64,000 nucleotides of DNA from Luteolibacter luteus (lineage in GTDB: Bacteria > Verrucomicrobiota > Verrucomicrobiia > Verrucomicrobiales > Akkermansiaceae). The notes under the pieces were generated by a model, which saw only the letters and a list, made by a program, of their open reading frames with translations, made no database searches and had not been told where the DNA came from. The stretch covers positions 2,232,001 to 2,296,000 of the forward strand of contig NZ_CP051774.1 of NCBI RefSeq assembly GCF_012913485.1, in the 5' to 3' direction. Both the position numbers and the translations under genes were made by a program. This document shows, one piece after another, positions 49,800 through 61,467 of the stretch (positions are counted from its first letter, which is position 1; every line of letters begins with the position of its first letter).

Positions 49800-50026
49800 G
49801 GCCTCCGTCACGGCTCATTGGTCATAAGTCATTGGGAAAAGGAGGGAGAAGTTACAAAAGCCGCCTCTCCTTCCCGGTGGCCAATGACTTGTGACCATTG
49901 CCTTCCACCATTTCACTTGCGCCGGAAGCGGCTGGAAGTCAGAAAAGCCCCCCGCTCCACCGGGGGCTGCGCGACAGACTGTCTCTCCGCGCCCGCGGGG
50001 CGAGAAACACCATCCCGCGCGCTTCC

Positions 50027-51193
50027 ATGGACAGCATTTCATCCCGAGTCAACGAGGTCACTCCGTCCCTCACCCTGGCCGTCACGAATCAGGCCAAAGC
50101 CATGCTCGCCCGCGGCGAGGAGGTCTACGGTCTCGCCGGTGGCGAGCCGGAAGTCGACACCCCGGAGCACATCAAGGCAGCCGCCATCGTGGCGATGCAG
50201 CAGGGCCGCACCAAGTATACCCCGGCTGGCGGCATCCCCGAGCTGCGTGAAGCCCTTTCCGCGAAGTTCATCGCGGACAACAATCTTACCTACGACGCCA
50301 AGCAGATCTGCGTGACCTCCGGTGCGAAGATGGCCTGCTTCAACGCGATCCTCGCGATCGTGGAGGAAGGCGACGAAGTCATCATCCCGACTCCCTACTG
50401 GGTGAGCTACCCGGAAATGGTGAAGCTGGCAGGCGGCAAGCCGGTGCTGGTGGAAACCAAGGAGTCCAACGGCTGGAAGATGACCGCCGAACAATTCGAG
50501 GCCGCCATGACCCCGGCGACCAAGATGGTCATCCTCAACTCGCCCTCGAACCCGACTGGCGCGATCTACACCGAGCAGGAGCTCCGCGACATCGGTGAAG
50601 TGGCTCTTTCCGAGGACATCATCATCCTTTCCGACGAGATCTACGAGAAGCTTGTCTACGGCAACAACAAGCACACCTCGATCGCTTCCCTGAGTGACGA
50701 GCTCTACAACCTGACGATCACCGTCAATGGCTTCTCCAAGGCCTACTCGATGACCGGCTGGCGCCTGGGCTACACCGCCGCTCCGAAGGCAATCGCCGAG
50801 GCGATCGACAAGATCCAGAACCACACGGTTTCGAATGCCACCACCTTCGCCCAGTACGGTGCCATCGCCGCCCTGCAAGGTGACCAGACCTTCATCAGCG
50901 ACCTGCGCGACGAGTACGATGTGAAGCGCCAGTTCGTCCTCGGTCGCCTGAAGGGCATCAATAACATCCGCGTGGTGGAACCGAAGGGTGCCTTCTACTT
51001 CTTCGTCTACACCGGCAACCTCGGCCTGAAGTCGATGAACCTCACCGACAAGCTGCTGAGCCGCTACAAGGTGGCTGCCGTTCCGGGCGTCGCCTTCGGC
51101 TACGACGAGGGCATCCGCCTGAGCTACTGCACCACGCTGGACGTGCTCAACGAGGGTCTGACCCGCTTCGAGCAGTTCTGCCGCGAGCACTAA
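50027..51193 (+). CDS. PLP-dependent aspartate aminotransferase (class I)
   Basis: 388 aa from the ATG at 50,027 (MDSISSRVNEVTPSLTLAVT). Fold type I: GEPEVDTPEHI at the N-terminal loop, ILNSPSNPTGAIYT, LSDEIYEKLVYG and the PLP-lysine region NGFSKAYSMTGWRLGY. C-terminal PGVAFGYDEGIRLSYCT binds the substrate carboxylate by Arg. It fits class Ib aspartate transaminases of bacteria. A terminator follows. Longer upstream frame is rejected because the family starts near this Met. Confidence 0.85.
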   Translation: MDSISSRVNEVTPSLTLAVTNQAKAMLARGEEVYGLAGGEPEVDTPEHIKAAAIVAMQQGRTKYTPAGGIPELREALSAKFIADNNLTYDAKQICVTSGAKMACFNAILAIVEEGDEVIIPTPYWVSYPEMVKLAGGKPVLVETKESNGWKMTAEQFEAAMTPATKMVILNSPSNPTGAIYTEQELRDIGEVALSEDIIILSDEIYEKLVYGNNKHTSIASLSDELYNLTITVNGFSKAYSMTGWRLGYTAAPKAIAEAIDKIQNHTVSNATTFAQYGAIAALQGDQTFISDLRDEYDVKRQFVLGRLKGINNIRVVEPKGAFYFFVYTGNLGLKSMNLTDKLLSRYKVAAVPGVAFGYDEGIRLSYCTTLDVLNEGLTRFEQFCREH

Positions 51194-51255: not shown

Positions 51256-53424
51256 TCAGCGCTTTGCCGACTTGGCTGCGAGGATCATGGCTCCCAATTC
51301 GGTCACGATGCGGGCGATCTGCGGATAGACCCAAGGCTCTCGGAAGCGGCTGGCATCGCGATGATCGCTATCGATTTCCGGCAGGCGGAAGGATTCCAAG
51401 GAAAAGAGCACGGCATCGACTTCCGCGACCGGGGCACCCTTGGTCATGGATTCTTCCAAGGCCCCAAAAGCTGAGTCACTGGAGCGGAGGAAGTCCGCGA
51501 CGAACTCGGGATGCCGGCTCACCTGATCGTTGAGATGCACGGCGATGACGTTCAGGGCATTCGTCACGCGCTGGTTGCCATTTGCCAAAGCGGCAGCTTG
51601 TTCGAGCCCGGCGCGATGGATCTTCGGATCCGAGGACATGCGGCGCAGCGAGGAGAAAGCATCGGCATTCGCGGACTCTGCCTCCTTCTTCGCGTCCATC
51701 ATCGGCTCGTCGTAGGGGCCGCCTTCCTTCAGTCGATCGGCCACCAGACGCAGGTAATCGCGGTTTCTCGCGAGGGCATTTGAAAGAATCCCCGGAAAGC
51801 GCCCCCGCTCCCAGACCGGCCAGAATAGAAAGGCCGCGACAAGCGCCAGCAGGCCGCCACCCAAGGTGCAAGCCATGCGCTCGATAGTAAAAGCAATTGT
51901 CACCGGCTGATGCGCTTCCATCAACAGCACCACCACCAGCGTGATGAAGAAAACCGCCACCCCGTAGCGGCGCTTCACCAGATAGGAAAAGATCGCGATG
52001 GTGGCGGCCACCGCAACGTGGATCACCGATGGATCCGGGCGCAGCCAAAGCAGGCTGCTAGCGAAAAGCCCGCCCGCCAAGGTACCAATGACGCGCTCCG
52101 CCGCCTTCTTCCGCGTGGACCCGAAATCCGGCTGAAGTACCACGATCATCGTAAACGGCAGCCAGTAACCATGGGGAATCCCGCTGAGCTTGAAGACCAG
52201 CACGCCAATCAATGAGAGCACCATGATCCGGAGCGTGTGGCGGACGAGCGCTGGATCGACACGGCGGCTGAAATTCAGCGAGGAAGCCAGCGGCCGAAGC
52301 GTCAGGGTCTGGAGATCGAATAGCTCCATCGAGAAGGTGGTGCGCTCATCCGCCCTTTCAACGGTAGTGCGCAGGGCCTGATGAACGATTGGCAACTGCG
52401 CGGTGATTTGTCCGATGATCTCGACGAGCTGCTCCGCCATCGCGGAGTCCGCGCCCTGTGAACGGATCTGGGACTGGAGCACCGTAAGCAGGTTCTCCAA
52501 GCGGGCCAGCCGCACTTCGAAGGCTGCCAGGTGCGAGGGCTGGCGCGACACGGCGGCCAGCGCCACCATTCGCGCCGCGTTTCCGAGCGAGGCCTGTGCG
52601 GGCGCGAGGGAAGCTTCGAGCTGCTTGAAGGCAGGCTGCTGCATGGCGGCTTCCACCGCGGTATTGAAAACGATCACACGCATCGCCAAGCGAGCCGCGG
52701 CAAGATTGAGCAGTTCGAGCTGGCGCAAGAGCTTGCTCGAGAGACGGCTGGAGGCAGCCAAGGTGGCTTGCGATTGATTCAGGGCCGCGCGAAGGTCCGC
52801 CTGCTTTTCCGCGACAGTTTGGTTACGGTCCTTCGTGCCGGATGCCATCGCGTCCAAGAGATCCGCCAAGGCGATCCACGACTCAGCCACGGTCCGGCGC
52901 ATCGGGTGCTGCGGATGAATCGGCCAGAGGATGATCTGGGACAGGACGCCGAAGAGCGCGCCGCCCAAGGCCGAGAAGGCGGGATGAATCCCACCGGGCA
53001 TCATCACGTGGGGCGATAGGGAAACAAAGAACATCAACCCTGTGGAAACGGCCAGACCCGCGCCATAGTCACTGCTCAAGTGGCGCCACAGGCCGCTGCC
53101 CAATGCCACCAGCACGGTACCGAGAAGGGCCAAGGGCAAGCTGGTGGAGCCCAAGGTACCCAACACCACGGCGATCACCAGCACCATGGTCATGCCGAGC
53201 AAAAGGCCCAGCCGGAAGGAGTAGGCCCCGCGTACATCCACCAGCGAGATCGTATGGGCCGCAATGCAGGCGAAGGCCGGATCGATCTTTACCCCGCCGT
53301 AATAGGAGGCCAGCAGCGGGACCATGAAGGCCACTGTGCCGCGGATGGCGCGGTTCAGATCGGGGCGCAGGGACTCTTGTTCCGCAATGCGTTGGATAAG
53401 CCCCCCGGGCGCGACGGCCGACAT
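51256..53424 (-). CDS. FUSC-family transporter (aromatic acid or efflux type)
   Basis: 722 aa. Two blocks of TM helices (about residues 25-170 and 390-530; YYGGVKIDPAFACIAAHTIS and PHGYWLPFTMIVVLQPDFGS with TRKKAAERVIGT) carry the FUSC signature in the second block. A long cytoplasmic helical region lies between and after. Related YccS/FusC/AaeB proteins export aromatic acids or envelope metabolites. It is monocistronic and convergent with the aminotransferase. Substrate unknown. Confidence 0.8.
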   Translation of the reverse strand: MSAVAPGGLIQRIAEQESLRPDLNRAIRGTVAFMVPLLASYYGGVKIDPAFACIAAHTISLVDVRGAYSFRLGLLLGMTMVLVIAVVLGTLGSTSLPLALLGTVLVALGSGLWRHLSSDYGAGLAVSTGLMFFVSLSPHVMMPGGIHPAFSALGGALFGVLSQIILWPIHPQHPMRRTVAESWIALADLLDAMASGTKDRNQTVAEKQADLRAALNQSQATLAASSRLSSKLLRQLELLNLAAARLAMRVIVFNTAVEAAMQQPAFKQLEASLAPAQASLGNAARMVALAAVSRQPSHLAAFEVRLARLENLLTVLQSQIRSQGADSAMAEQLVEIIGQITAQLPIVHQALRTTVERADERTTFSMELFDLQTLTLRPLASSLNFSRRVDPALVRHTLRIMVLSLIGVLVFKLSGIPHGYWLPFTMIVVLQPDFGSTRKKAAERVIGTLAGGLFASSLLWLRPDPSVIHVAVAATIAIFSYLVKRRYGVAVFFITLVVVLLMEAHQPVTIAFTIERMACTLGGGLLALVAAFLFWPVWERGRFPGILSNALARNRDYLRLVADRLKEGGPYDEPMMDAKKEAESANADAFSSLRRMSSDPKIHRAGLEQAAALANGNQRVTNALNVIAVHLNDQVSRHPEFVADFLRSSDSAFGALEESMTKGAPVAEVDAVLFSLESFRLPEIDSDHRDASRFREPWVYPQIARIVTELGAMILAAKSAKR

Positions 53425-53545: not shown

Positions 53546-54490
53546 GTGATCGAAACCGCAGTCATCGGTATTCGCAGCTTGGCAAGCGCGCTTCCCTCCC
53601 GCTTTGCGGAGGTGGAGACCTTGCGCACCTCTTCCGCCGCCGGGACCCTACGCAGCTTCGGATTCCCCGGAGCCTGGGTGGAAGGCAATGCCTCTCAGCT
53701 GGCTTTGGCCGCGGCGCGCAAGGTGGTTCCCGGGAAGAAGATCGATGCGTTGCTATGGGTGGGTGCCCTCTCGGGGAGTCACGAGCATGCGAGCGCATCC
53801 GGGATCTCGAAAGATAACGTGCTCCACCGCTTCTGTTACCCGGGCAGCTGGCTTCAGGAAGAACTCGGGCTGGAACAGGCGACCGTCAGCGGAGTCGCCC
53901 AGCAAGGTTGCGCGGGGATGTTCTCCGCGATGCGCCATGCGCGGGCCCTGCTGGTAGCCGAGCCCGAAGTAAAGAACGTCCTTTGTGCCGGGGCAGACGC
54001 CCTGCCGGAGAATGCAGAGCGTGAGCTGCTCTACAATGTGATCAGCGATGCCGGCTGCGCCTGCGTGCTTTCGCATGAAGAACTGCTCTATCGCTGGATA
54101 GGCTACCACCAGATCAGCCGGGGTTACTACTGGGACGTCCCGGCAAAGCAGAGCGAGATCATCGCCGCCTATTTCCCTACCGCAGCGCTTACGATCCGCG
54201 GCGTCTTGAAGAAAACTGGCATCCGGGCGGAGGAGATCGATCTCGTAATCCCCACGGGCGTGAATCGCAGTAGTTGGCCGATCCTGATGCGGCTCTGCGG
54301 CATCCCGGACGAGAGACTCTATCAGCCGGAGAAATCCTTCGGGCATACCATCGCCGCGGATAGCGTGCTGATCCTTGAGGAAGCACGGGAGCGGGGAGTG
54401 TTGAGACCCGGCATGAAGCTGCTGCTTTTCGCCTACGGCTTCGGGTCGAGCTGGTGCTCGCTGATTCTTGAAACCACGGACCTGATATGA
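53546..54490 (+). CDS. KASIII-like ketoacyl synthase with altered triad
   Basis: 314 aa from GTG 53,546. Thiolase fold; nucleophile in VAQQGCAGMFSAM (Cys122). In canonical FabH the later motifs are P-H-Q-A-N and G-N-T; here they read IPTGVNRSS (Thr236 where His is usual) and FGHTIAADS (His266 where Asn is usual). GFGSSWCSLIL ends the C-terminal domain as in KASIII. It may condense a carrier-bound amino acyl or acyl group, or transfer without decarboxylation. First gene of an eight-gene operon; coupled to the SDR gene by ATGA. Confidence 0.75.
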   Translation: MIETAVIGIRSLASALPSRFAEVETLRTSSAAGTLRSFGFPGAWVEGNASQLALAAARKVVPGKKIDALLWVGALSGSHEHASASGISKDNVLHRFCYPGSWLQEELGLEQATVSGVAQQGCAGMFSAMRHARALLVAEPEVKNVLCAGADALPENAERELLYNVISDAGCACVLSHEELLYRWIGYHQISRGYYWDVPAKQSEIIAAYFPTAALTIRGVLKKTGIRAEEIDLVIPTGVNRSSWPILMRLCGIPDERLYQPEKSFGHTIAADSVLILEEARERGVLRPGMKLLLFAYGFGSSWCSLILETTDLI

Positions 54491-55482
54491 AGATCCTCCT
54501 CACCGGATATACTGGAAACCTCGGTCCCGCGATTGCCAGGGAACTCTCGGAGCACGAGGTGATCGCGTGTGTTCGCAATCCGGAAGCGGCTCCGAAGATG
54601 GGGCATGTCCGCTTGGTTCAAGGCACGCTGATGGAGCTGCCACGATCCGTCGCCGGCGAGATCGAAGTAATCATCCACGCTGCGGCAAACACCTCCTTCG
54701 TCACTCCGCTCGATGACCTGAGGATCACCAACGTCGAGGGAACGCGGAGCATCCTGGAATTTTCACGCGCCCGTCCGCGTCTCGAGAAGATCATCCATGT
54801 CAGCACTGCCTGCGTTTGCGGAAAGCAGTCGGGCTCCGTGCCCGAAGCACGCCTCCCAAAGCCAGCCTCCTTCGTGAATGCCTACGAAGAGAGCAAATGG
54901 GAAGCAGAAGAACTCGTTTTCAATAGCGACCTGCCGACCGAGGTCATCCGGCTCTCCATCGTGGCAGGAAGCGAAACCGATGGCTCCGTCCGGCGTACCG
55001 GCGCTCTCCATCACACGCTCTACTGGCTGTGGAAGGGCCTCATCCCGATGATGCCCGGATCTCCGGATTCCTTGGTGGATCTGATCTCCACGGAGCATGC
55101 GGCACAAGTCGTGGCGGGCCGTGCGGTCGCCGGATTGCAACCGAAACAGGTGACCCATGGCTGTGCCGGCGAAGCGGCTCCGCGCTTGGGCGAATTGCTG
55201 GATCATCTCACCACGATCTTCTCGAAGCGATCCCCCGCATGGGAACGCGGCAGCATCACGCCTCCGATGATTGTCGATGCGGCGACCTTCGCGCTCTTCG
55301 AGGAAACGGTGGCGCAGAGTGGCGACCTCCTCTTCCGCCGCATCTGTCAGGACTCCAGATCCTTCCTGCCCGGACTTCTCCATCCGCGCCAATACGAAAC
55401 CACAAACTCCGGAACTCCCGCCACCGATTGGCGGCATCTCGCAGAACTCGTCACAGGCCATGTCATTGATTCACGATCCTGA
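54487..55482 (+). CDS. extended SDR/thioester reductase-like enzyme
   Basis: 331 aa. Rossmann motif LLTGYTGNLGPAIAREL at residues 4-20, IIHAAANTSFVTPLDDLRI in the middle, IHVSTACVCG then YEESKWEAEELV with the Y-x-x-x-K catalytic pair. It matches NAD-binding_4 or thioester-reductase domains that release carrier-bound acyl groups as aldehydes or alcohols, or reduce ketones. No carrier domain is fused; a separate ACP follows and overlaps by 23 nt. Confidence 0.8.
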   Translation: MKILLTGYTGNLGPAIARELSEHEVIACVRNPEAAPKMGHVRLVQGTLMELPRSVAGEIEVIIHAAANTSFVTPLDDLRITNVEGTRSILEFSRARPRLEKIIHVSTACVCGKQSGSVPEARLPKPASFVNAYEESKWEAEELVFNSDLPTEVIRLSIVAGSETDGSVRRTGALHHTLYWLWKGLIPMMPGSPDSLVDLISTEHAAQVVAGRAVAGLQPKQVTHGCAGEAAPRLGELLDHLTTIFSKRSPAWERGSITPPMIVDAATFALFEETVAQSGDLLFRRICQDSRSFLPGLLHPRQYETTNSGTPATDWRHLAELVTGHVIDSRS

Positions 55483-55747
55483 TTCTTTCCGCGCCGCGAT
55501 GCTGCACTTCGTGAACGAGGTGCTTCCCACGCTGGATGCGAACAAGCCGCCTCACTCCGATGCGGTTCAAGCGGACACACCCCTCTTCGAGAACAACCGT
55601 CTCGATAGCCTTTCCATCCTGCATCTGATCGCCGCGATCGAAGACCTGACCGGTGAAGCCGTACCGGATGCGAAGGTCACGATGAAATATTTTCAGAACA
55701 TCGAAACCATCACCGCCACCTTTTGCCATGAGCACGCAGCTTCTTGA
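55460..55747 (+). CDS. acyl carrier protein 1
   Basis: 95 aa from the ATG at 55,460 (MSLIHDPDSFRAAMLHFVNE). The 4'-phosphopantetheine motif is in LFENNRLDSLSILHLIAAIE (Asp-Ser-Leu, Ser near residue 50), followed by a helix with GEAVPDAKVTMKYFQNIETI. It overlaps the reductase end by 23 nt and the ligase start by 20 nt. It needs a host PPTase. Likely carrier for the amino acid loaded by the next enzyme, or for the acyl chain. Confidence 0.8.
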   Translation: MSLIHDPDSFRAAMLHFVNEVLPTLDANKPPHSDAVQADTPLFENNRLDSLSILHLIAAIEDLTGEAVPDAKVTMKYFQNIETITATFCHEHAAS

Positions 55748-56456
55748 ACACACCGACATCACGTCCATAGATTCCCGTCTCAAGGCGTGGACGACCGGGC
55801 GCGGGGGCAGAGAGCAAGACTGGCCGGTGCTGATGGATGAAGAAACCCTGAAACGCGCGGGTTATCCCGATGCCTTCCCGCATCTGATGATGACGGCATG
55901 TGTGGGCACCGATCCGGAATCCGCGCCGGGCACCCTCTCCTCCTCCGGGTGGTGCCTCTCCCCTGCCGTATGCTACCACGCGTATGCGGCGCTGGAGGGA
56001 AGCATCATCCACGGAGGGCTGCGCCTGGCGGCACGCGGCCACTGCTTCCGGAATGAAGCGGCAGACGAACTTAGCCCCGGACGCCGACAGATTGAGTTCC
56101 AGATGCGCGAGCTGGTGTTGATCGGCAGCACGCAGTGGATCGAGCAAGAGCTGGCCGGGGTGCAGGGCGAGATCGATACGATCGCGAGCAATCTGGGAAT
56201 GCCAGGCAGCTGGGAAATCGCGAACGATCCCTTCTTCCTCCCGACAGCCAAGGGCAGGGCTCACATGCAACGGCTGATGGAGACCAAGCGCGAGTATTGC
56301 CTCCACGACGGCCTCGCCATCGCCAGCATCAATCGCCACGGAAATTTCTTCGGCGAGAGATTCCACCTATCCCTTTCCAATGGGCAGGCCGCCAGCTCGG
56401 CCTGCATCGCTTTCGGCCTCGACCGCTGGGCCGCTCATGCCAAGCACGCGCTATGA
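55728..56456 (+). CDS. amino acid:[carrier protein] ligase homologue
   Basis: 242 aa. A class II aaRS-like catalytic core without tRNA-binding domain. GLRLAARGHCFRNE (motif 2, residues 97-110), IEFQMRELVLIG, NDPFFLPTAKGR and SINRHGNFFGERFHL precede SSACIAFGLDRWAAH (motif 3). Cys82, Glu128 and Cys226 are placed like the zinc ligands of characterised aa:CP ligases. These activate small amino acids with ATP and attach them to carrier proteins. It is between two ACP genes. The N-terminus is shorter than in known members. Confidence 0.8.
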   Translation: MSTQLLEHTDITSIDSRLKAWTTGRGGREQDWPVLMDEETLKRAGYPDAFPHLMMTACVGTDPESAPGTLSSSGWCLSPAVCYHAYAALEGSIIHGGLRLAARGHCFRNEAADELSPGRRQIEFQMRELVLIGSTQWIEQELAGVQGEIDTIASNLGMPGSWEIANDPFFLPTAKGRAHMQRLMETKREYCLHDGLAIASINRHGNFFGERFHLSLSNGQAASSACIAFGLDRWAAHAKHAL

Positions 56457-56459
56457 ACC

Positions 56460-56702
56460 ATGACCACGATCTCACCTGAAGACGTCATCTCCCGGTTGAA
56501 GCGCCGGTTGCCAAAACTGGATCCGCTTCTCGACGAGGACACCCCGCTCCACGCGCTGGGCCTCGATAGCATGGACACCGTGGAACTGCTCTGCGCGATC
56601 CATGAGGAATTCAACGTGCGGCTCTCCGAGCGCGAATTCCTTCCCCACCAACGCCTCCGCGATCTAGCGCAAACAATCGCAAGCAAACAAGAACTCTCAT
56701 GA
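56460..56702 (+). CDS. acyl carrier protein 2
   Basis: 80 aa, MTTISPEDVISRLKRRLPKL. The carrier motif is in HALGLDSMDTVELLCAIHEE (Ser near residue 38), with the acidic helix typical of ACPs. It starts 3 nt after the ligase stop and is coupled to the first diiron gene by ATGA. Two ACPs of different type in one operon suggest separate acyl and aminoacyl carriers. Confidence 0.85.
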   Translation: MTTISPEDVISRLKRRLPKLDPLLDEDTPLHALGLDSMDTVELLCAIHEEFNVRLSEREFLPHQRLRDLAQTIASKQELS

Positions 56703-57412
56703 ACTACGGAGACTACCTCACCACTTCCGAGATGACCCGATGGATGCTCGATACGGACATCGCCTGGGACGAGATCGACGCCGCGAAGGCGCTCGCCCAA
56801 CCGGAACTTCTCGACCGCGTGCGCGAATCTGCGCTGATCGAATCCTTCTTTCCCATCTTCACCCCGCGGGTCCTTGATCTGCTCTGGGATGACGTCACCA
56901 GCACCGCGGTCTACAGCGTGCAGCTGTATGAGAGCTACAAGCACTTCCATGTCTTTGCCCAGTATCTCGACGCGGTCGGCTATCGCCCCATCAAGGACGA
57001 GGAGATTGTGGCAATCCGCAAGAAGAACCTCGGCCTGAAGTTCGATCACCCCTCCCGCCTGCTCACGCGCTACATGATGAGCGAGCACTTTGCGGCGCAT
57101 ACTTTCTTCAAGGACTCCCGCCGCTGCGCCGAGCCGGTCCTCGCCCACATTCTGTCGCTGGTGGCGAAGGACGAGGTGCGGCACTGCCAGTTCGGCTACG
57201 AGTTGCTAGCCATGCGTCTCGCAAAGCATCCGGAGGAGATCGACGCGGTGATCGATGAGGCCGCGCACTTCAAACATCTTGGCGAGCTCGTGGTACCAGA
57301 TGTCCCGATCGCGGAGAAGAATGACTTCTCCGCGATCCTCGCCATCAACCGCAAGATCGCCCGTCTCACGGGTCGGAAGATCTCATCAACCCTGTCGGAG
57401 GTTCTGGCATGA
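56699..57412 (+). CDS. ferritin-like diiron oxygenase candidate 1
   Basis: 237 aa, four-helix ferritin-like. Ligand motifs: SALIESFFPIF (Glu), QLYESYKHFHVF (Glu/His), MMSEHFAAHTFF (Glu/His) and AKDEVRHCQFGYE (D-E-x-R-H). The set of E, E-x(n)-H, E-H-x-x-H and D-E-x-R-H resembles carboxylate-bridged diiron oxygenases such as AurF/CmlI-like N-oxygenases. It probably oxidises a carrier-bound amino or acyl group. Coupled to neighbours by ATGA. Confidence 0.65.
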   Translation: MNYGDYLTTSEMTRWMLDTDIAWDEIDAAKALAQPELLDRVRESALIESFFPIFTPRVLDLLWDDVTSTAVYSVQLYESYKHFHVFAQYLDAVGYRPIKDEEIVAIRKKNLGLKFDHPSRLLTRYMMSEHFAAHTFFKDSRRCAEPVLAHILSLVAKDEVRHCQFGYELLAMRLAKHPEEIDAVIDEAAHFKHLGELVVPDVPIAEKNDFSAILAINRKIARLTGRKISSTLSEVLA

Positions 57413-57987
57413 ACCGACGGAATCTTGCTTGGAAGCTCGGCTGGTATCGCCAGAGCGAGCTGGATGGGGCCCTGCTGCTCGGCCGGATGGTGGGGCAGAC
57501 GGAGGATGCCTACATGATCGAGCGGCTCACCCGTCACTGCGCGGAGGAAGCCGAGCATTCAAGGCTCTGGGAGGAAGTCATCCGCGAACTGGATCTCCCG
57601 CATATCACGATCCGCCGCAGCTTCCAATCGTTCTACATGCGCCACACGGCACCGCCGGCTTCCTTGCTGGAAGTGCTGTGCTTCACGCAGATCTTCGAAC
57701 GTCGCGTCCACAAGCGCTTCATCGCTGAGGCCGCTGATCCCGCCACGCCTGAAGCGGCACGGCGGGCCTTCTTGAAAATGATCGAAGATGAAAAGGATCA
57801 CCTGGGCTGGGTCGCCCATTGGCTGAAGGACCAGCCCGGTGCCCTTGCTTGCCTGACCCGCTTCCAAACCGCCGACCAAGCTGTCGCCGATGAACTCCTT
57901 CCCTATGAACACCGCATCCATGACATCCCGGATCTCGGAAAAGAAAGCCTCGCAGCGGCCCGCCAACTTCACCCGGCGCACGGTTGA
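57409..57987 (+). CDS. ferritin-like diiron protein 2
   Basis: 192 aa, MNRRNLAWKLGWYRQSELDG. Helical with AEEAEHSRLWEEVIREL, IFERRVHKRFIAE and MIEDEKDHLGWVAHWLK; these supply E-x-x-H and E-x-x-H ligand pairs. Resembles small ferritin-like or MiaE-type proteins. It may act as a second oxidation step or as partner for the preceding protein. Coupled to it by ATGA and overlapped by the methyltransferase start. Confidence 0.6.
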   Translation: MNRRNLAWKLGWYRQSELDGALLLGRMVGQTEDAYMIERLTRHCAEEAEHSRLWEEVIRELDLPHITIRRSFQSFYMRHTAPPASLLEVLCFTQIFERRVHKRFIAEAADPATPEAARRAFLKMIEDEKDHLGWVAHWLKDQPGALACLTRFQTADQAVADELLPYEHRIHDIPDLGKESLAAARQLHPAHG

Positions 57988-58762
57988 CCTGGCTGGCAAG
58001 CTCCGCCGCGAAGGGCGATGGCATCTTCTCGTGCTCTACCATCTCGTGCGTTTGAGCGACTTTGGCCGCGAGGGCATCGAGCGATCTGGCAGCTACCGCT
58101 TTGCGGATCACCTTTATCAGAACGAGGCATCCGGACGGGGTAAATTGGGGCGCTGGCTCGACCGCAGGCTTCTTGACCTCCCTTCTGCCAAAGCCATGCG
58201 GCGACGTTATCAGAAAGCAAAAGATGAGATCATTCGCTTGCTCCATTCACGGTCGGGGCCTCTGAAGATACTGGCAATTCCCTGTGGCATCCCTCGCGAT
58301 CTCTCGGAGGTGGCAGCCACCTTTCCTGAAGCAGCGAGGGGGATTCATTACACCGGAATGGATCTCGATCCGGAGGTGCTCACGGCTGCGGAGCAACATC
58401 TCGAAGATGTCTCGCTGGGATCGACCGAATTCATCGAGGGAAACGCCCTGATCGCCACCAGCTATCCCAAGGAGCGCTTCGATCTCATCATTAGCACCGG
58501 ACTCGGTGAATTCCTGGATGATCCGGATCTCGACCGCTTCTACTGGAACGTCTTCGACGCGCTCGAGGAAGGAGGAATCTTCTTCACCAGTGCCACGGCT
58601 TTCGAACACCGCTCCGACTTCCTCATGAAGGCTTTCGAGATGGAAGCGCACTATCGGAACAAGGAGCAGATCGAAGCGATCCTGCGAACCTTGCCCTGGA
58701 AGCAGATCGATCTGGAGATCGACGAAAGCGGACTACAGACCTTTGTCAGGGCGATAAAGTAA
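57890..58762 (+). CDS. class I SAM methyltransferase
   Basis: 290 aa from the ATG at 57,890; starts at 57,905 or 57,920 are equally open. The SAM fold begins near residue 125: LKILAIPCGIPRDLSEVA (motif I), IHYTGMDLDPEVLTAAEQ (acidic ribose-binding Asp) and FDLIISTGLGEFLDDPD (motif IV). The N-terminal 100 residues are helical and basic and may contact substrate. It overlaps the second diiron gene by up to 98 nt. It would methylate the pathway product (O, N or C unknown). Confidence 0.75.
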   Translation: MNSFPMNTASMTSRISEKKASQRPANFTRRTVDLAGKLRREGRWHLLVLYHLVRLSDFGREGIERSGSYRFADHLYQNEASGRGKLGRWLDRRLLDLPSAKAMRRRYQKAKDEIIRLLHSRSGPLKILAIPCGIPRDLSEVAATFPEAARGIHYTGMDLDPEVLTAAEQHLEDVSLGSTEFIEGNALIATSYPKERFDLIISTGLGEFLDDPDLDRFYWNVFDALEEGGIFFTSATAFEHRSDFLMKAFEMEAHYRNKEQIEAILRTLPWKQIDLEIDESGLQTFVRAIK

Positions 58763-58765
58763 GAT

Positions 58766-59521
58766 TCAGACCGCAAACTCCCTCGCCCCTTCATCCTCCT
58801 TCTTGTCACCCGCGAGAGTTTCGATGAGGTCTTTCTGGATGACCGCGGCCTCGGACTCCCGGCATTTTACGAAGCGCATGATATCCCCTTTTGTAAGACC
58901 GCCGTAGCTCTTCCTCACCCGCTTTGTCGTATTGGTCGCATCCCCGTCGATCTCGATGAACTCATCCATCGTGCGGAAACGCTTCTTAGGGCAAGAGGTG
59001 CGTTGAGCTTGCCACGCGGTGACATGTCGCTCATGCGCGGCAATCATCTCCTTCATGCTGATATCCGGAGAAAGGTAGTGCCGGTCTTCATTGGGCGGTG
59101 ATTCGAGCATGCTCATGCTCGCAAGATTCATGGTGAGCACGCTCGTTTCGTCCGCAAAGAAGGTCTGCAGGGCAACGCTTCTCAGCGTCGAAGGAGCCTT
59201 GGTGAGGAACCTCAGGCACAGCCGGGTCCAGAGGCGCGGATGAGTCCGGAAAAGCGTAATCGCGGTATCTTCCCGTCCGTTCACCATGCAACGGACAAAG
59301 GTTCTCTGCTCATCTGATGACGACTGGCCGGAAGGGGACACCATGTGCCCATCTCCAAGGAGCCTCGCACCCTCCGCTTCGAACTCTTTCTGAATCCTTT
59401 CATACCACCGGAAGTCCTGTCGAGGATACTGCTTCCGGGCATCACAAGTCACCATCACCTCGGTATTCGGGGTAACGAGTTTCATAGCCATCGACAGGAG
59501 GATCTCGAATCGCTTGTCCAT
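58766..59521 (-). CDS. hypothetical protein, convergent to the operon
   Basis: 251 aa, MDKRFEILLSMAMKLVTPNT. VMVTCDARKQYPRQDFRWYE, ALQTFFADETSVLTMNLASM and RSESEAAVIQKDLIETL are mixed alpha/beta and polar. No motif was recognised. It ends 4 nt from the methyltransferase stop, tail to tail, so its relation to the operon is unclear. ATG at 59,485 is an alternative start. Function unknown. Confidence 0.55.
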   Translation of the reverse strand: MDKRFEILLSMAMKLVTPNTEVMVTCDARKQYPRQDFRWYERIQKEFEAEGARLLGDGHMVSPSGQSSSDEQRTFVRCMVNGREDTAITLFRTHPRLWTRLCLRFLTKAPSTLRSVALQTFFADETSVLTMNLASMSMLESPPNEDRHYLSPDISMKEMIAAHERHVTAWQAQRTSCPKKRFRTMDEFIEIDGDATNTTKRVRKSYGGLTKGDIMRFVKCRESEAAVIQKDLIETLAGDKKEDEGAREFAV

Positions 59522-59643: not shown

Positions 59644-60192
59644 GTGCATCGCAAGCCCCTGCTCGACCAACTCGCCGTCTATGCGGAAACGCATCCGGAG
59701 GAAGCCGCCACCATCCAGCGTTTCATCGCCTTCGTGGAGACCCGGCCTGAGTGCTTCGAGCGCTCCTTGCTAGAGGGCCACATTACCGGATCGGCATGGA
59801 TCGTCGATCAGGGTGGAGCGAAGGTGCTCCTGACCCATCACCGGAAGCTCGACGCCTGGCTTCAGCTCGGTGGACATGCCGATGGCGATCCCGATGTGCT
59901 GGCGGTCGCGCTGAAGGAGGCGGAGGAAGAATCGGGTCTCAATGGCTTCGAAGCAGTGACGGAAGGAATCTTCGATTTGGATATCCACCCGATCCCGGAA
60001 CGAAAGGGCGTGCCGGAGCATCTCCACTACGATGTGCGCTATGTCCTGCGAGCTACCGGGAGCACCGACTATGTGGTGAGCGAAGAGTCCCATGACCTGC
60101 GGTGGGTGTCGCTGGACGAAGTCGCCACTCTTACGACGGATGCCTCGATGCTTCGGATGGTCGAAAAGTGGCGGTCAAAAATCGCCGGTTGA
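59644..60192 (+). CDS. Nudix hydrolase
   Basis: 182 aa, MHRKPLLDQLAVYAETHPEE. Nudix box: LQLGGHADGDPDVLAVALKE followed by AEEESGL, with the G-x5-...-K-E-x-x-E-E-x-G-L order; the usual Glu after G-x5 is Pro/Asp here. The C-terminal part WVSLDEVATL supports the fold. It hydrolyses a nucleoside diphosphate-linked substrate. A promoter for the next gene overlaps its last codons. Function generic. Confidence 0.75.
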   Translation: MHRKPLLDQLAVYAETHPEEAATIQRFIAFVETRPECFERSLLEGHITGSAWIVDQGGAKVLLTHHRKLDAWLQLGGHADGDPDVLAVALKEAEEESGLNGFEAVTEGIFDLDIHPIPERKGVPEHLHYDVRYVLRATGSTDYVVSEESHDLRWVSLDEVATLTTDASMLRMVEKWRSKIAG

Positions 60193-60218
60193 CATGCAAC
60201 CATTTGGTTGCCTATTTT
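60189..60218 (+). promoter_or_regulatory. ArsR promoter with overlapping operator
   Basis: TTGACA at 60,189-60,194 and TATTTT at 60,213-60,218 (18-nt spacer) surround a perfect inverted repeat GCAACCA-TT-TGGTTGC at 60,196-60,211. The ATG at 60,225 is 7 nt past the -10, so the mRNA may be leaderless. The repeat is a likely ArsR binding site for self-repression. Confidence 0.65.
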
Positions 60219-60224
60219 CCCGAC

Positions 60225-60536
60225 ATGGATGACGTCTTCAAGGCCTTGGCTGATGAAAGCCGACGGGCATTGCTGGACCGGCTCCATGCCCGGAACGGAC
60301 AGACGCTTGGCGAACTGTGCGACGGGCTCGACATGACCCGGCAGGCGGTGACGAAACACCTCGGGATTCTCGAGGCCGCGAACCTCGTCGCCACCGTGAA
60401 GCGGGGTCGAGAGAAGCTGCACTATCTCAATCCGGTGCCGATCCATGAGATCGGTGTCCGCTGGATCGGGAAATTCGAAGTGCAGCGTCTCGACACCCTC
60501 GCCGAACTAAAACGCAACCTCGAACGAGACCAGTAG
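60225..60536 (+). CDS. ArsR-family regulator
   Basis: 103 aa from the ATG at 60,225 (MDDVFKALADESRRALLDRL). Winged HTH: LGELCDGLDMTRQAVTKHLG and ILEAANLVATVKRGREKLHY. The C-terminal VRWIGKFEVQRLDTLAELKR fits ArsR members linked to AHSA1/SRPBCC genes. It precedes two such genes by 2 nt, forming the usual cassette. Confidence 0.85.
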   Translation: MDDVFKALADESRRALLDRLHARNGQTLGELCDGLDMTRQAVTKHLGILEAANLVATVKRGREKLHYLNPVPIHEIGVRWIGKFEVQRLDTLAELKRNLERDQ

Positions 60537-60538
60537 CC

Positions 60539-60991
60539 ATGAGCACTCCGAAACTTGTTTACGTCACACAGATCCGCACCACCCCCGCGGAGCTCTGGAA
60601 AGCCCTGACCGATCCGGATTTCATCCGCCAATATTGGTTCGGCTGCACCAACACATCCTCTTGGAAAGAGGGGGACCCGATCGAAAGCCGGGATCCCGAT
60701 GGATCAATCGCCTGGCAGGGGAAGATCCTGAAGAGCGTACCCGAAGAGGAGCTCGTCTTCACCTTCGACTCGAAGAACATCGAGCACTCCGAGAAGCCCT
60801 CGCGCGTCAGCTTCAAAATCGACCGGCTGCCGCAAGCTATGCAGCTCACGATCACGCATGATGAGTTTCCGGAAGTCAGCGCCGTCCGCGACCGCGTCTC
60901 GAATGGCTGGCCTTCGATCATCGAGAATATCAGGTCCCTCTTGGAAACCGGGCAACTGGTGGATCACAAAGTCTCCTGCAAGGCATCCTAA
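60539..60991 (+). CDS. AHSA1/SRPBCC-like protein 1
   Basis: 150 aa, MSTPKLVYVTQIRTTPAELW. START/AHSA1-like fold with PAELWKALTDPDFIRQYWFG, SWKEGDPIESRDPDGSIAWQ and LLETGQLVDHKV. It lies 2 nt after arsR and is about half identical to the next gene: a tandem duplicate. It may bind a hydrophobic ligand sensed with ArsR. Function uncertain. Confidence 0.8.
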   Translation: MSTPKLVYVTQIRTTPAELWKALTDPDFIRQYWFGCTNTSSWKEGDPIESRDPDGSIAWQGKILKSVPEEELVFTFDSKNIEHSEKPSRVSFKIDRLPQAMQLTITHDEFPEVSAVRDRVSNGWPSIIENIRSLLETGQLVDHKVSCKAS

Positions 60992-61002
60992 ACACCACTG
61001 CC

Positions 61003-61467
61003 ATGAGTGCTCCAAAACTTGTTTACGTTACCCTGATCCGCACCACGCCAGGGGAACTCTGGAAGGCCCTGACCGATCCGGACTTCATCCAGCAATACTG
61101 GTTCGGGCGCCGGAACACCTCGTCTTGGAAAGAAGGCGAAGTCATCCAGAGTTACGGGCCGCAGGGCGAGCTCGAATGGGATGGCAAGATCCTCAAGAGC
61201 GTGCCCGGGAAGGAAGTCGTTTTCACCTTCCACGACCTGGAAACCGACGAAGCACCCTCGCGAGTCAGTTTCAAGATCGAACCGCTCGGTGGCGGCACGA
61301 TGCCTCAGGGCGATGCCGTGCAGCTCACCGTGACTCATGATGACTTCATCGAAGACAGCAGGGTCCTCGAGGGCGTGTCCCATGGCTGGCCCGCGATCCT
61401 CAGCAGCTTGAAATCGCTCCTCGAAACGGGACGTTCGCTGGATCTCGGCTGGAAGGGAGACGAGTGA
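61003..61467 (+). CDS. AHSA1/SRPBCC-like protein 2
   Basis: 154 aa, MSAPKLVYVTLIRTTPGELW. Tandem duplicate of the previous protein: ELWKALTDPDFIQQYWFGRR, SWKEGEVIQSYG and ILKSVPGKEVVFTF match at once. It starts 11 nt later. Same inferred role. Confidence 0.8.
   Translation: MSAPKLVYVTLIRTTPGELWKALTDPDFIQQYWFGRRNTSSWKEGEVIQSYGPQGELEWDGKILKSVPGKEVVFTFHDLETDEAPSRVSFKIEPLGGGTMPQGDAVQLTVTHDDFIEDSRVLEGVSHGWPAILSSLKSLLETGRSLDLGWKGDE

Follow-up and report, generated by a model that had tools for sequence, protein, structure and literature searches.

The operon at window 53546-58762 of Luteolibacter luteus raises the question of how an amino acid may be held, modified and released on free-standing carrier proteins (the window is the whole stretch of DNA that was analysed, i.e. 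64,000 nucleotides of contig NZ_CP051774.1, positions 2,232,001 to 2,296,000). An earlier note on this DNA had described eight contiguous genes of a ligase-based carrier pathway. Eight plus-strand open reading frames (ORFs) were confirmed, and both the ORFs and their family matches agree with the gene content given in that note (Table 1). None of the eight genes encodes a non-ribosomal peptide synthetase (NRPS), a polyketide synthase (PKS) module or an adenylation (AMP-binding) domain according to Pfam and NCBIfam, which supports the idea of loading by a ligase; for the same reason, searches keyed on adenylation domains or modular NRPS/PKS would be expected to miss this operon. From the genes present, their arrangement and conservation, and the catalytic residues, we read the locus as a discrete, non-modular counterpart of the adenylation-thiolation-reductase line, in which an amino acid would be loaded, oxidised, moved, reduced and methylated (estimated probability about 0.48).

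Table 1. Genes of the L. luteus operon (window coordinates). KASIII, ketoacyl-ACP synthase III; SDR, short-chain dehydrogenase/reductase; ACP, acyl carrier protein; SAM, S-adenosylmethionine.
Product	Coordinates	Strand	Main evidence
KASIII-like acyltransferase, putative (314 aa)	53546..54490	+	GTG start; Pfam ACP_syn_III_C 7.8e-17
Extended SDR, thioester-reductase type (331 aa)	54487..55482	+	NAD_binding_4 5.5e-29
ACP1 (95 aa), DSL serine S50	55460..55747	+	PP-binding 3.6e-4, 21.2 bits (cut-off 20.8)
Compact class II amino acid:[carrier protein] ligase, predicted (242 aa)	55728..56456	+	PRK07080 1.9e-28; PDB 4h2w 4.9e-21
ACP2 (80 aa), DSM serine S37	56460..56702	+	PP-binding 1.8e-12
FER1, ferritin-like (237 aa)	56699..57412	+	ligand motifs and structure prediction
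FER2, ferritin-like (192 aa)	57409..57987	+	ligand motifs and structure prediction
SAM-dependent methyltransferase, predicted (280-290 aa)	57890..58762	+	Methyltransf_12 4.6e-11; Methyltransf_20 1.9e-9

The genes are tightly packed. The six junctions from the KAS gene to FER2 consist, in order, of overlaps of 4, 23 and 20 nt, a gap of 3 nt and two further overlaps of 4 nt each. The start of the methyltransferase gene is uncertain (ATG at 57890, 57905 or 57920), and it overlaps FER2 by 98, 83 or 68 nt, respectively. This gene was found in six loci, and the best PDB match of its product is 3ocj (2.7e-8). Promoter and terminator scans revealed no excess of signals over shuffled sequence.

The operon is carried by six Verrucomicrobial genomes representing four families and two orders. 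Five of them (G000, G061, G071, G072, G138) contain the full eight genes in identical order, and the sixth (G005) contains seven whole genes plus a piece of the KAS gene, within which its contig begins. Five genomes besides that of L. luteus repeat the eight families in this order, which makes the set more than a chance arrangement, and the joint conservation of neighbours on which the earlier note had staked its reading was thus found. Identity to the window proteins ranges from 36% (the SDR of G138) to 90% (FER1 of G005); among named genomes with the operon, the nearest is a metagenome-assembled genome (MAG) of the Akkermansiaceae, followed by a Verrucomicrobiales MAG. The spacing is looser in some loci: in L020 FER1 and FER2 are separated by 69 or 288 nt, depending on the start chosen, in L021 ACP2 is preceded by 50 nt, and in L022 a longer gap precedes the methyltransferase gene.

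The distribution of the operon is sparse. Within the genus it occurs in scattered fashion, in 2 of 18 genomes, some of the 18 being incomplete. The ligase was detected in 8 of 97 relatives, including the source genome, with five close copies, and in 4 of 387 genomes of a phylum sample, of which one was new (G138, from another order of the class). Of 386 genomes from the order, 4 had a FER1 match, as did 1 of 223 from the order of G138, in each case inside the operon; the ligase, phylum and FER1 samples overlap one another. In G087, G090 and G093 a distant ligase was found, and the surrounding 13-16 kb contained no other gene of the set. A classic-clade ligase in such a setting, again within 13-16 kb, is seen in three genomes of family f4 (L023, L024, L025), to which the operon carriers G061 and G072 also belong.

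The flanks of the operon are for the most part not shared: the window has a FUSC-type transporter gene, and the other loci have genes for polynucleotide phosphorylase, GDSL lipase, sulfatase, phosphoglucomutase or a 2-oxoacid dehydrogenase E2 component. The eight genes therefore constitute the conserved unit. The divergent FUSC-type transporter gene (51256-53424) was considered as an exporter of the product and rejected, as no homologue was found in the five related loci, one of which is nearly devoid of flank. L020 and L021 are the only loci that share a divergent LysR gene (60% identity; the Pfam run was made on the L020 copy), and an aminotransferase-family gene upstream of the operon in L018 shows 22% likeness to the window gene 49898-51193. 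No sign of recent import was found in base composition, the G+C content of the operon (60.2%) being equal to that of the window (60.2%), although the presence of the operon is patchy.

The ligase aligns with the solved Bradyrhizobium ligase 4h2w over residues 15-238, which correspond to the class II catalytic core. C82, E128 and C226 (at the zinc-ligand positions), R108 (motif 2) and R233 (motif 3) align to the Bradyrhizobium chain and are invariant in all six copies. We take the first three residues to fall on the Bradyrhizobium zinc ligands C131, E176 and C279, assuming an offset caused by a 20-residue tag. In the first step of the pathway, this class II enzyme would quite probably activate an amino acid with ATP and load it onto the phosphopantetheine arm of a carrier protein. 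That the genome has two matches to phosphopantetheinyl transferases counts in favour of the proposal.

In a plasmid collection, 94 records contained a ligase match; 19 loci, picked for diversity and not at random, were opened, and 17 of these were annotated. Pairing of the ligase with an oxidase was observed in 13 of the 17 annotated neighbourhoods. The classic order of ACP, acyl-CoA dehydrogenase, ligase and DUF1839 occurs in six of them, 3-hydroxyacyl-CoA dehydrogenase with ACP and acyl-CoA dehydrogenase in three, and a Pfam AurF oxygenase (E from 2.9e-26 to 3.8e-36) in four (Tistrella, two Streptomyces, Agrobacterium vitis), three of these four also containing an annotated nitronate monooxygenase gene. 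When 28 ligases were placed in a tree, those of the operon formed one clade (100/98), the AurF-partnered ligases together with that of S. clavuligerus a second (98/99), and the classic ligases, along with those of G087, G090 and G093, a third (100/100).

Two sets of loci identified in this survey deserve mention in their own right. The AurF oxygenase-carrier protein-ligase operon recurs in other phyla (L033 8691-11973, L035 8777-11514, L037 6824-9772, L040 5723-9644) and looks like a module for carrier-bound N-oxidation. In L038 (7638-8831), L039 (7581-8780) and L042 (7659-8792), ligase homologues lie beside genes for 3-hydroxyacyl-CoA dehydrogenase, ACP, acyl-CoA dehydrogenase and an acyltransferase. 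This set presumably resembles the aminomalonyl-ACP set of zwittermicin, with the ligase replacing the adenylating enzyme, a likeness that would imply the loading of serine.

The two carrier proteins of the operon are unlike each other. With a profile of ACP1, the four AurF-operon carriers reached 39.2, 28.9, 24.4 and 15.5 bits (the last being that of A. vitis) and the S. clavuligerus carrier 27.8 bits, compared with 15.2 and 9.4 bits for two ACPs of the source genome (9.4 for the fatty-acid-type ACP). The profile of ACP2 gave the reverse picture: the two ACPs of the source genome were the best matches (30.5 bits, and 30.0 for the fatty-acid-type ACP), and the AurF-operon carriers scored 10.5, 6.1, 5.1 and 4.2 bits. 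ACP1 was therefore classified as a ligase-type carrier and ACP2 as a fatty-acid-type one. By these profiles, ACP1 is the likely partner of the ligase, and among the carriers it would most likely, with reasonable confidence, be the one that receives the amino acid.

In the KASIII-like enzyme, C122, H267 and D272 are invariant in all five full copies. The C-terminal part aligns without gaps with the FabH chain 4wzu, so that PTGVN falls on PHQAN and GHTIAAD on GNTSAAT. At the position that we take to be His244 of FabH, the window protein has Thr237 (Thr, or Asn in one of the five copies), and at the presumed Asn274 all five copies have His, followed by Asp at +5. Of the Cys-His-Asn triad of FabH only the Cys is thus present, and a Cys-His-Asp arrangement of the ChlB3/CerJ type was found instead, with Asp five residues past His. 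According to PMC9573744, the triad of ChlB3 (Cys113, His296, Asp301) is shared with CerJ; ChlB3 passes an acyl group from ChlB1 to the ACP ChlB2, and CerJ transfers malonyl to a sugar hydroxyl. H267 and His296 of ChlB3 probably occupy the same place. Among distant KAS homologues, five (Streptomyces, Rahnella, Burkholderia) likewise place Asp five residues after His, and one of these five lacks the Cys; a FabH-like Vibrio protein keeps the usual Asn.

Since the triad is Cys-His-Asp and not Cys-His-Asn, acyl transfer appears likelier than formation of a C-C bond, and the condensation of two units by this enzyme, as suggested in the earlier note, is not supported. We lean slightly towards a third step in which Cys122 would take up the acyl group and move it between ACP1 and ACP2 (in either direction), or to another acceptor, without making a C-C bond. 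As a separate observation, a Streptomyces decoyicus locus (L053 5743-11233) encodes a KASIII of this GHxxxxD type together with a pyridoxal phosphate-dependent enzyme, an ACP and a protein that is ATP-grasp-like by eye, beside an NRPS; it is a candidate for another KASIII-type aminoacyl transfer locus.

The SDR contains TGxTGxxG and Tyr-x3-Lys motifs, and all six copies have S106, T107, Y133 and K137. It matches reductase domains best, the top PDB hit being MxaA (4u7w, 2.4e-19, profile positions 2-224 of 336 only); a type I PKS chain (2.8e-16) comes second, and epimerase-like proteins stand between these two and the AusA reductase (2.2e-10). The match to Thioester-redct (TIGR01746) has an E value of 8.2e-24 and, at 84.5 bits, does not reach the cut-off of 213 bits; the SDR also matches the OleD model (3.1e-12). 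In the fourth step it would, as we think rather likely, free the product as an aldehyde or alcohol.

The same data bear on the possibility that the operon makes an aminoacyl/acyl hybrid, with the KAS joining an acyl group on ACP2 to the aminoacyl group on ACP1, by C-C condensation or N-acylation, and the SDR perhaps acting as a ketoreductase or in the manner of OleD. The KASIII fold with its invariant Cys122, the fatty-acid-type ACP2 and the OleD match are all consistent with such a role, and the example of DpsC, a KASIII with Ser-His-His that condenses, indicates that loss of the usual triad is compatible with condensation (PMC9573744, which is loose on this point, since it has relatives other than CerJ condensing as well). 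We nevertheless consider the hybrid rather unlikely, given the replacement of both FabH positions in all five KAS copies and the preference of the SDR for thioester-reductase families. Through its fatty-acid-type ACP2 the operon leaves some room for the acyl hybrid of the earlier note. Another conceivable outcome is the decoration of a surface or lipid, in which the KASIII-like enzyme would place the oxidised aminoacyl group on a sugar or lipid group. The activity of CerJ offers a precedent, and ligation to a surface sugar has been proposed for classic ligase operons (PMC2922099, note in proof). This appears highly improbable for L. luteus: there is no glycosyltransferase, glycosidase or DUF1839 among the eight genes, the ligases of classic type belong to another clade, and a thioester reductase would be an odd partner.

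The oxidation step is assigned to the two ferritin-like proteins, neither of which passes a Pfam cut-off (best E 0.036 for FER1 and 7.2e-4 for FER2). FER2 has the complete set of two His and four carboxylates (E17, E47xxH50, E97, E128xxH131), invariant in six copies. Its model (mean pLDDT 92.5; pLDDT, predicted local distance difference test) superimposes on MiaE with Z 16.8 (2.5 A, 162 residues), on aldehyde-deformylating oxygenase with Z 16.7 (167 residues, 2.6-2.7 A) and on PaaA/PaaC with Z of about 14; Z values of this size are, as the tool itself warns, common for helical bundles. Foldseek matched neither the FER1 nor the FER2 model at E < 0.001, and the absence of a family from the fold lists does not exclude that family. 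In the plasmid collection FER2 had no match at E 0.01, and FER1 had three, at 29%. An assignment of either protein to the AurF family (PF11583) was rejected, as no AurF match was obtained at E up to 1.

No other protein of the operon is conserved as well as FER1 (mean column identity 83%), which resembles acyl-ACP desaturases and AurF. By sequence it matches DesA2 in the PDB (1za0, E 0.0012) and, under the cut-off, the acyl-ACP desaturase family PF03405 (E 0.036); acyl-ACP desaturases are also the best structural matches (Z 14.8, 3.8 A, 220 residues) of what is a low-confidence model (pLDDT 64.5). An alignment that includes two AurF proteins and a homologue from Cupriavidus shows E48, H82, E129, E159 and H162 to be kept in FER1, but all six copies have Ser79 at the position of the AurF ligand E136 in the first ExxH, and the motifs are ESxxH and VxxDExxH as against DExxH and HxxDExxH in AurF. 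The preceding residue, E78, could take the place of the lost Glu. Of the two diiron proteins described in the earlier note, FER2 thus has the full ligand set, while in FER1 one ligand Glu is replaced by Ser, making it a ferritin-like protein with a natural change of metal ligand. For the second step, we are somewhat inclined to believe that FER2, with or alongside FER1, would oxidise the carrier-bound aminoacyl group with O2, at N or C.

FER1 and FER2 may also form one heteromeric oxidase with FER1 as a structural or ACP-docking subunit, an arrangement compatible with the proposed pathway and reminiscent of PaaC, which is reportedly non-catalytic beside PaaA. In three loci their genes share 4 nt, and in another two they are no more than 11 nt apart; PaaA/PaaC are among the structural matches, and FER1 is the best conserved protein in spite of the missing ExxH Glu. 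This possibility seems doubtful, as the genes are well separated in L020 and five of the six FER1 ligand positions are invariant, unlike in a decayed site. Alternatively, FER2 might cleave or oxidise the amino aldehyde after its release, in analogy to the cyanobacterial pair of acyl-ACP reductase and aldehyde-deformylating oxygenase. The latter enzyme is practically tied with MiaE in the fold comparison, the complex of the pair (6jzu) gives Z 16.2, and a reductase is encoded in the same operon. With identities of only 8-19%, a match to MiaE that is equally good, and Z values of a kind common for helical bundles, action on the aldehyde must be regarded as very unlikely.

The methyltransferase of the proposed pathway would cap a heteroatom at one stage or another of this sequence. 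As end product we would expect a modified amino aldehyde or amino alcohol of small size, which may carry an acyl group, or a compound formed from either. Several observations weigh against this proposal. Besides the Ser79 substitution and the poor model of FER1, these concern the ligase, whose score (99.4 bits) does not reach the NCBIfam equivalog cut-off of PRK07080 (357 bits) and whose match covers only profile positions 68-293 of 318; for comparison, the ligase of Shinella obtains 510.9 bits, that of Rhizobium 523.4 bits, and two AurF-type ligases 134.7 and 143.8 bits. Judging from these alignments, the operon ligase is a divergent relative of the class II amino acid:[carrier protein] ligases and not that equivalog. 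Its grouping with the AurF-partnered clade is weak (71/88), and 4 of the 17 neighbourhoods lack the pairing with an AurF oxygenase or acyl-CoA dehydrogenase. As regards the carriers, the ACP1 profile gives the classic-type Caballeronia protein 24.3 bits, about as much as one AurF carrier and more than that of A. vitis, and two classic-type carriers and one from Priestia reach 23.5-25.7 bits with the ACP2 profile. The link of the KAS to ChlB3 consists of the residue spacing and a profile match (7eqi, 3.7e-11) whose best stretch is N-terminal, and at least three of the five GHxxxxD homologues keep the FabH His that the operon KAS has lost. Finally, no regulator or exporter common to all the loci was found.

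A bolder version of the proposal combines all the unusual traits in one NRPS-free line: a ligase derived from an aminoacyl-tRNA synthetase in place of the adenylation domain, two unlike carriers, a Cys-His-Asp KASIII shuttle, and oxidation by FER1 as a novel type of carrier-dependent ferritin-like enzyme, in which loss of one ExxH carboxylate from the diiron site would leave an open coordination position. Such a position has been proposed for the CylC-type dimetal halogenases, through the shift of another Glu (PMC12101540). We consider this version unlikely; if true, the position in FER1 could hold a halide or another ligand and permit chemistry beyond hydroxylation.

Some further features of the genome (one contig of 6.41 Mb) lie outside the operon. 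Directly downstream, the minus strand encodes a 251-aa protein (window 58766-59521) with no Pfam family (best E 0.14) and no match in the related loci. At window 60102-61467, two adjoining genes of about 150 codons, mutually similar by eye, follow a small regulator gene that is ArsR-like by eye; the pair, which we take to be SRPBCC/AHSA1-like, is probably a tandem duplication. Carrier-protein domains within open frames of 622-3061 aa, at 666-681 kb and around 5.25 Mb of the same genome (L001, L002, L004, L005, L007), point to modular NRPS/PKS loci apart from the operon.

In a search limited to open-licence PMC papers, the eight-gene set was not described in any title or abstract. A 2022 review considered the biological role of the attachment of amino acids to carriers by these ligases as still unknown (PMC9437257). 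The operon described here, together with the AurF-carrier-ligase operons, offers a testable role for this attachment, namely that the amino acid would stay on the carrier to be oxidised and then released, and with its length of about 5.2 kb it is short enough to be expressed as a whole in Escherichia coli.

The closest known systems are the classic ligase operons of Shinella, Rhizobium, Azospirillum, Caballeronia and Mycetohabitans, which comprise genes for an ACP, an acyl-CoA dehydrogenase, the ligase, DUF1839 and a glycoside hydrolase of family 2 (GH2). The L. luteus operon has in common with them a ligase resembling seryl-tRNA synthetase (solved relative 3mey/4h2w), an adjoining small carrier protein and an adjoining oxidase; the latter is an acyl-CoA dehydrogenase homologue in the classic operons, but ferritin-like in L. 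luteus. It differs in the absence of DUF1839 and a glycosidase, in the ligase (242 aa versus 302-304 aa, in another clade) and in the additional reductase, KASIII, second ACP and methyltransferase. With the AurF-carrier-ligase operons of Tistrella (pTM2), Streptomyces NBC_00335 and NBC_01431, and A. vitis it shares the ligase, a diiron oxygenase and a small carrier (24-39 bits against the ACP1 profile in three of the four), and in Tistrella a methyltransferase gene follows as well. These operons differ by their AurF-family oxygenase, by the nitronate monooxygenase in three of four, and in that no KASIII or thioester reductase is annotated in the same run (NBC_01431 has a KASIII gene on the other strand, and Tistrella and A. 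vitis have SDR genes farther away).

The ham/pvf systems (fragin, valdiazen) are alike in outline, with an AurF-related N-oxygenase acting on a carrier-bound amino acid and a postulated reductive release (PMC11659414), but they employ an NRPS-like protein and no SerRS-like ligase, and the same source itself doubts the reductase step. ChlB3 and CerJ share with the operon KAS the Cys, His and Asp with Asp five residues past His (PMC9573744), but are distant in sequence, and the KAS gene lies by a ligase and two ACPs and not in a polyketide setting. The reductase domain of the myxalamid protein MxaA is the best PDB match of the SDR; the operon enzyme is a free-standing protein, and the match is partial. 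The principle of aminoacyl modification is not new, because modification of the aminoacyl group by the redox enzyme of classic ligase operons was already proposed in 2010 (PMC2922099, note in proof); the L. luteus operon is set apart by its ferritin-like oxidases, its Cys-His-Asp KASIII and its reductase.

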